A DNA stretch of 64,000 nucleotides from Lachnospiraceae bacterium. Lineage in GTDB: Bacteria > Bacillota > Clostridia > Lachnospirales > Lachnospiraceae. The notes under the pieces are model-generated. The model was not told where the DNA came from and did not search any database. It saw only the letters and a program-made list of their open reading frames with translations. Below are positions 209 to 61,746 of this stretch, in pieces (within the stretch, counting starts at the first letter, position 1; each line of letters opens with the position of its first letter). Location of the stretch: NCBI GenBank assembly GCA_024698485.1, contig JAILRC010000018.1:1-64000 (forward strand). The letters are read 5' to 3'. Made by a program: the position numbers and the translations under genes.

Positions 209-364
209 TTACTGTTCACAGATATACAAGATGCTTAAACACTGAAAGCTTGCTTTCAATGAGTTTTAGCATCTTGTATATTCTGCGTAGCAGTAACGCC
301 CCCGCACTCATGAGCAAGTAGCGAAGCGGATTGCGAATGCGGGCAGTGGGCGCGTGAACAGTAA
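209..364 (+). repeat. Structured intergenic element, copy 1 (11-bp terminal inverted repeats, long hairpin, small hairpin, conserved CATGAGCAAGTA/GGATTGCGAATG junction)
   Basis: TTACTGTTCAC (209-219) / GTGAACAGTAA (354-364); long hairpin 222-281; CTGC-GTA-GCAG 283-293; shares CATGAGCAAGTA and GGATTGCGAATG with copy at 28216-28391. Strand arbitrary. Confidence 0.6.
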
Positions 365-28215: not shown

Positions 28216-28391
28216 ATCAATGTTCGTATATGTGCAATAGTCTTAGCCTCTGAAAGGGTACTTTCAAGAGGCCAAGACTGTTGCACATGATGCGAAGCAT
28301 CGACCGACAAGACGCATGAGCAAGTAATATCGCAAAGTCGACTGACTTTGCATTATGGATTGCGAATGCGTCTTGGCGGATGAACATTGAT
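28216..28391 (+). repeat. Structured intergenic element, copy 2
   Basis: ATCAATGTTC (28216-28225) / GAACATTGAT (28382-28391); hairpin 28230-28288; GATGC-GAA-GCATC 28289-28301; CCGACAAGACGCAT/ATGCGTCTTGGCGG (28304-28317/28366-28379); shared junction CATGAGCAAGTA...GGATTGCGAATG. Confidence 0.65.
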
Positions 28392-61540: not shown

Positions 61541-61746
61541 ACAGTTTTCCCTTCATAAATGAAAAAGATATATTTGGCACATTATATCACTTTGGAAACC
61601 GATTCGCAATCCTGCCCCTCTCCGACGCACTGTTTAACAAAGTTTTTATACCATTTTCACACAAAGTGTGCTAATATCATTCTTGTATACGCTGAACAGT
61701 ATGTAATATGCGGTTTGAAAATTTTCAGAAAACACCAAGGGCGCTT

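Follow-up and report, generated by a model that had tools for sequence, protein, structure and literature searches.

Two copies of one multi-hairpin element

The window, that is, the whole 64,000-nt stretch of Lachnospiraceae DNA analysed here, carries two copies of one multi-hairpin element. Copy 1 has a MerR gene as its downstream neighbour, and copy 2 lies in a flagellar operon, with flgG on one side and a flgJ-like rod-binding gene on the other (from the Pfam domains of the neighbours). The parts are given below, where TIR is terminal inverted repeat, TSD is target-site duplication and R1 is a covariance model trained on nine copies that exclude copy 2.

200–207, no strand: left TSD of copy 1, AAAACATC, 8/8 identical to 366–373
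208–365, plus: copy 1, very probably a 158-bp MITE, type A, with core hairpin; R1 160.6 bits, TIR pair, 8-bp TSD
208–219, plus: left TIR of copy 1, GTTACTGTTCAC, the 5′ arm of P1
221–282, plus: long hairpin P2 of copy 1 with conserved apex CTGAAAG-NNNN-CTTTCA; double-sided changes at 10 of 17 stem pairs among nine copies
283–293, plus: short hairpin P3 of copy 1, CTGCGTAGCAG; 4 pairs, invariant in type A
309–339, plus: core hairpin of copy 1, CATGAGCAAGTA-GCGAAGC-GGATTGCGAATG, with a tandem GA/GA loop and a GTA/GGA loop; the part common to RF01699
354–365, plus: right TIR of copy 1, GTGAACAGTAAA, the 3′ arm of P1, last base altered
366–373, no strand: right TSD of copy 1, AAAACATC, pairing with 200–207
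28216–28391, plus: copy 2, a diverged member of the copy-1 family; R1 93.3 bits; no remaining TSD
28230–28288, plus: P2 hairpin of copy 2
28315–28368, plus: core hairpin of copy 2, inner stem enlarged
61602–61703, minus: possible decayed third copy, unconfirmed; exact GGATTGCGAAT at 61602–61612, TIR-like ends at 61626–61703

All arms named in the original prediction, which had proposed two copies of one architecture, were located as claimed, and R1 recovered copy 2 at full length, at exactly 28216–28391 (93.3 bits, E about 6e-26). The two copies are homologues with a common multi-hairpin fold, in which strong compensatory change surrounds a fixed core. The predicted outer stem P1 is present and extends one base further, to 208 and 365, where it is the terminal inverted repeat described below. 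The junction strands CATGAGCAAGTA and GGATTGCGAATG, taken at first to be unpaired, pair with each other through CAT/ATG and GCAA/TTGC, split by the symmetric loops GA/GA and GTA/GGA. The candidate third copy at 61602–61703, upstream of a TrkA-domain gene, scored a mere 1.9 bits with R1 and is unsupported.

Both copies were more stably folded than any of 200 shuffles, at −66.7 kcal/mol for copy 1 (z −6.6) and −98.4 kcal/mol for copy 2 (z −13.5). The opposite strands reached about the same values (−70.5 and −91.3 kcal/mol, respectively), and the fold alone therefore decides neither for an RNA nor for a strand. Compensatory change, the second part of the original prediction, was borne out by the alignment of nine copies: both sides had changed in 24 of 61 pairs, compared with 9.8 ± 1.7 in shuffles (0 of 500 as high), and none of the slid pairing registers approached this figure. 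For the core we used the arms of 15 copies, most of them retrieved without demanding the exact core; the copies from the broad core search (L084–L201) had been chosen by exact core and were for that reason kept out. Eight of the 11 core pairs had changed on both sides, and 95.8% of cells were paired compared with 73.4% after shuffling. The pair adjoining GAG was C-G, G-C or U-A in these arms, and the GAG/CGA loops were fixed.

Terminal inverted repeats and 8-bp target duplications

Further copies in the source genome revealed the outer stem as a terminal inverted repeat, which in copy 1 is the 12-bp GTTACTGTTCAC, its right end differing at the last base. The source genome holds 18 exact sites of the TIR 11-mer, several of them at contig ends, compared with one site for the reversed control; both predicted copies are real and are joined by many more. 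Copy 1 is flanked on both sides by AAAACATC, a perfect 8-bp target duplication, and the original prediction had indeed allowed for a MITE.

We then compared the flanks in a set of 52 complete TIR pairs drawn from several genera; the set includes a few overlapping pairs (nested copies) and related copies. An exact 8-bp duplication was found in 21 of the 52, and the flanks were alike at 7 or more of 8 positions in 28 of them, compared with 0.11% of 2652 mismatched flank pairs; duplications of lengths other than 8 bp showed no excess. A good duplication was absent from the other 24, for which decay or recombination between copies must be assumed. No duplication survives around copy 2, whose outer repeat ATCAATGTTC has only TGTTC in common with the standard TIR. 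Two further copies (L065 and L075) carry outer-stem changes that are matched at both ends, which goes beyond what transposase binding alone predicts. Four loci (L305, L347, L349 and L350) consist of TIR-only palindromes of 27–50 bp, for example GTTACTGTTCACNNNGTGAACAGTAAC, and lack good duplications.

Dispersal, interiors and empty sites

The TIR 12-mer was present in 30 of 120 sampled genera of the family Lachnospiraceae. The richest genome had 173 sites of the 12-mer and 201 of the 11-mer, with none for the reversed control in the same genome. Contigs terminate within copies, as repeats cause them to do in metagenome assemblies. TIR pairs fell into size classes of 131–133, 156–158, 189–191, 205–207, 255 and 282 bp, whose interiors are alike at the TIRs only. 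The host genus alone has at least three interiors behind the same TIRs, with the core in type A only, and between genera the interiors are wholly different while the TIRs and duplications are retained. A smaller second hairpin module, of the GGGGTCCCTCCCC...GGGGAGGACCCC type, is nested inside several MITEs (L022, L035, L303, L304, L306 and others), and its position varies: it lies within the core, on the 3′ side of the core, or in the interval from P2 to P3.

The position of copy 2 inside an operon and its near-perfect fold would suit an old, vertically inherited and immobile regulatory leader or terminator shaped by compensatory evolution. Comparison with draft genomes of congeners speaks against this. 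Copy 2 is absent from the orthologous site in all six congeners that have the flgG–flgJ locus, the interval measuring a few tens of bases at most in each. Copy 1 is absent upstream of the MerR gene in two congeners (G001 and G002), and in G002 the site consists of a single target. The empty sites alone refute vertical inheritance; in addition, the neighbouring genes vary from copy to copy with no conserved neighbour, and the 8-bp duplications are not those of an immobile element. We consider this explanation exceedingly improbable.

Taken together, the TIRs, the 8-bp duplications, the empty orthologous sites, the dispersal and the several interiors behind the same TIRs indicate that the window copies very probably belong to a short non-coding MITE dispersed over the genomes of many Lachnospiraceae of the rumen and gut. 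The structure is genuine, yet the element is better described as a mobile repeat than as a new RNA gene.

Candidate modes of transposition

We suggest that the element, whose interior is a chain of hairpins, was moved by a DDE-type transposase acting in trans and encoded by an insertion sequence that has the same ends. Duplications of 8 bp fit insertion sequence families such as IS6, IS66, IS256, ISL3 and IS1595, none of which was identified here. No autonomous element with the same ends was present among the 0.9–3 kb TIR pairs listed and examined in the draft genomes, which enclose ordinary genes: the 1.5-kb pair of G085 contains serS, and the longer pairs of G129 contain unrelated host genes. 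A survey of TnpB and TnpA neighbours of copies in other genera revealed no recurring transposase.

The many hairpins and the GTAG at the base of the core hairpin recall REP/RAYT elements and the PATEs of IS200/IS605, which are likewise dispersed intergenic hairpins with GTAG near the stem foot, and could point to a single-stranded DNA element mobilised by a Y1 transposase of the IS200/IS605 or RAYT type. Y1 transposition leaves no target duplication, however, whereas the present family has 8-bp duplications and long TIRs, and a search for Y1_Tnp genes found none in the source genome (79% complete) or in one other element-carrying genome (G004). The duplications refute Y1 transposition for the TIR family, so that we regard it as highly improbable. 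The Blautia-type core elements described below are exempt from that refutation, and their sharp ends without inverted repeats would suit a Y1 enzyme.

ERIC, Correia and RUP elements are bacterial MITEs of a comparable kind. The family resembles described bacterial MITEs (for example, MITEAba12; PMC6382973) in being short, non-coding, dispersed in multiple copies and hairpin-forming, with TIRs and a target duplication. It differs from them in that no parent insertion sequence was found, several unrelated multi-hairpin interiors occur per TIR, the whole element folds and changes are matched in both arms. Literature searches on the TIR sequence, on RF01699 function and on Lachnospiraceae MITEs gave nothing relevant, and a description of the family was absent from the open literature searched.

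Relation to the Clostridiales-1 motif

An Rfam scan of the window at curated thresholds gave no match. Run at an E-value threshold, cmscan aligned copy 1 (213–360) to the full RF01699 (Clostridiales-1) model, positions 1–166. The score of 40.4 bits (window E 2e-5) falls short of the 48 bits set as gathering threshold, and copy 2 had no RF01699 match even in this sensitive run. The proposal of an undescribed structured RNA thus keeps its structure and its compensation but loses its novelty as an RNA, because the sensitive search assigns copy 1, below threshold, to RF01699 and because TIRs and 8-bp duplications mark the element as a MITE.

The source genome contains two other RF01699 copies above the cut-off, at 93 and 67 bits; scores in congeners reach 113 bits, and 14 control genomes gave no match. 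The core hairpin UGAGcA...GCGGAaUgCGAA with its covarying closing stem is present in the MITEs as in RF01699, and the likeness extends to the core UGAG-CA...GCGGA-UUGCGAA, the same two internal loops, the enclosing P1, the long P2 and the host order, with bona fide members within the source genome. On this sequence evidence we regard the MITE core hairpin as homologous to part of the Clostridiales-1 motif. The high-scoring RF01699 copies, like the model, carry an extra hairpin inside P1 on the 3′ side of the core, whereas the window copies carry theirs on the 5′ side, and the best four RF01699 copies, judged by eye (L054, L055, L056 and L059), have neither TIR nor 8-bp duplication. Because the core is clearly shared but the architecture is not identical, we count the window copies as related to RF01699 but not as belonging to it. 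The original description lists the motif as RNA ‘y’ and cis-regulatory ‘n’, with no function given (PMC2864571). No tmRNA or tRNA was found adjoining the high-scoring copies. In four congeners, arrays of RF01699-like units (L057, L060, L061, L063 and L064) immediately follow a terminator-like GGAGTTCCCCTCTCTGGTCGGGGCATTTTTT.

Core hairpins outside the TIR MITEs

The core also occurs in TIR-less elements (L084–L201) of Blautia, Lacrimispora, Eubacterium ramulus, Anaerocolumna and other Lachnospiraceae, with sharp ends, TTTAACC... and ...CCGCTTGAC/CCGCTTTAC, and no inverted repeats. None of eight loci of this Blautia type matched RF01699 at E ≤ 0.05. Core hairpins outside the MITEs run in the same direction as both flanking genes in a ratio of 62:15 (from rough ORF calls), whereas the TIR MITEs show no co-orientation with genes (2 versus 3). 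The bias could stem from RNA function or from strand-biased single-stranded DNA transposition. In four genomes (L092, L102, L166 and L195) the core lies antisense in the N-terminal uvrB reading frame, to which it adds residues such as YSQSAALLAHEDA. The Blautia-type core is also present on nine unannotated gut phage contigs, MT835545.1 among them, and a plasmid search for it gave no match.

These observations bear on a further explanation, in which the copies encode, or form domains of, a functional Clostridiales-1 RNA that is transcribed and has its fold under selection, and their mobility is incidental. The full-length alignment of copy 1 to the model, the above-threshold copies in the source genome, the co-orientation outside the MITEs, and the variable GAG-adjoining pair next to fixed loops, of which GA/GA and GTA/GGA resemble non-canonical RNA motifs, would fit such an RNA. 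Copy 1 nevertheless stays under the curated cut-off and copy 2 goes unmatched; the TIR MITEs show neither co-orientation nor a bias of G-U over A-C; related MITEs bounded by the same ends have no core at all; no neighbouring gene is conserved; and the paired changes come as blocks, as set out next. We judge a functional RNA of this kind to be unlikely as the explanation of the window copies, for which we retain the MITE.

Meaning of the covariation

The original prediction drew from the covariation a constraint at the RNA (or single-stranded DNA) level; the covariation stands, and the step to RNA is weakened because both strands fold about equally, there is no G-U bias and paired changes arrive in blocks. 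Among the imperfect pairs of P2, G-U (48) did not significantly exceed A-C (38; p 0.33). Two 160-bp copies, L037 and L042, differ at nine positions, all in P2, and are otherwise identical; six of the differences form three neighbouring paired double changes and three lie in the P2 loop. Stepwise compensation under selection is not expected to spare the remainder of the element, whereas template switching between arms or hairpin exchange between copies would give such a pattern. Template switching is reported to create and maintain hairpins (PMC8794818). We propose that the compensatory changes arise at least partly at the DNA level, either through arm-to-arm template switching or because copies swap hairpin blocks with one another. 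The core, in which the non-canonical loops stay constant while the stems around them differ greatly, may be under selection as RNA, and the core hairpin may be kept for a putative RNA- or protein-binding role. By analogy with SINE RNA domains, the core (the GAG/CGA tandem G-A and the GTA/GGA loop) might be a module recognised in trans as RNA and acting on the transcripts into which it inserts, an idea to which we give little credence.

The family links an Rfam RNA motif that has lacked an explanation with a mobile repeat found in abundance in the Lachnospiraceae of gut and rumen, and it accounts for breaks of metagenome contigs at its copies. It also provides a case in which strong covariation is not in itself proof of an RNA function: copies almost the same in sequence differ by whole blocks of paired changes, the pattern to be expected if palindromes were rewritten at the DNA level (compare PMC8794818). 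Were the core indeed a trans-recognised module, one RNA module would be carried on at least three unrelated repeats, namely the TIR MITEs, the RF01699 elements and the TTTAACC...CTTGAC elements.
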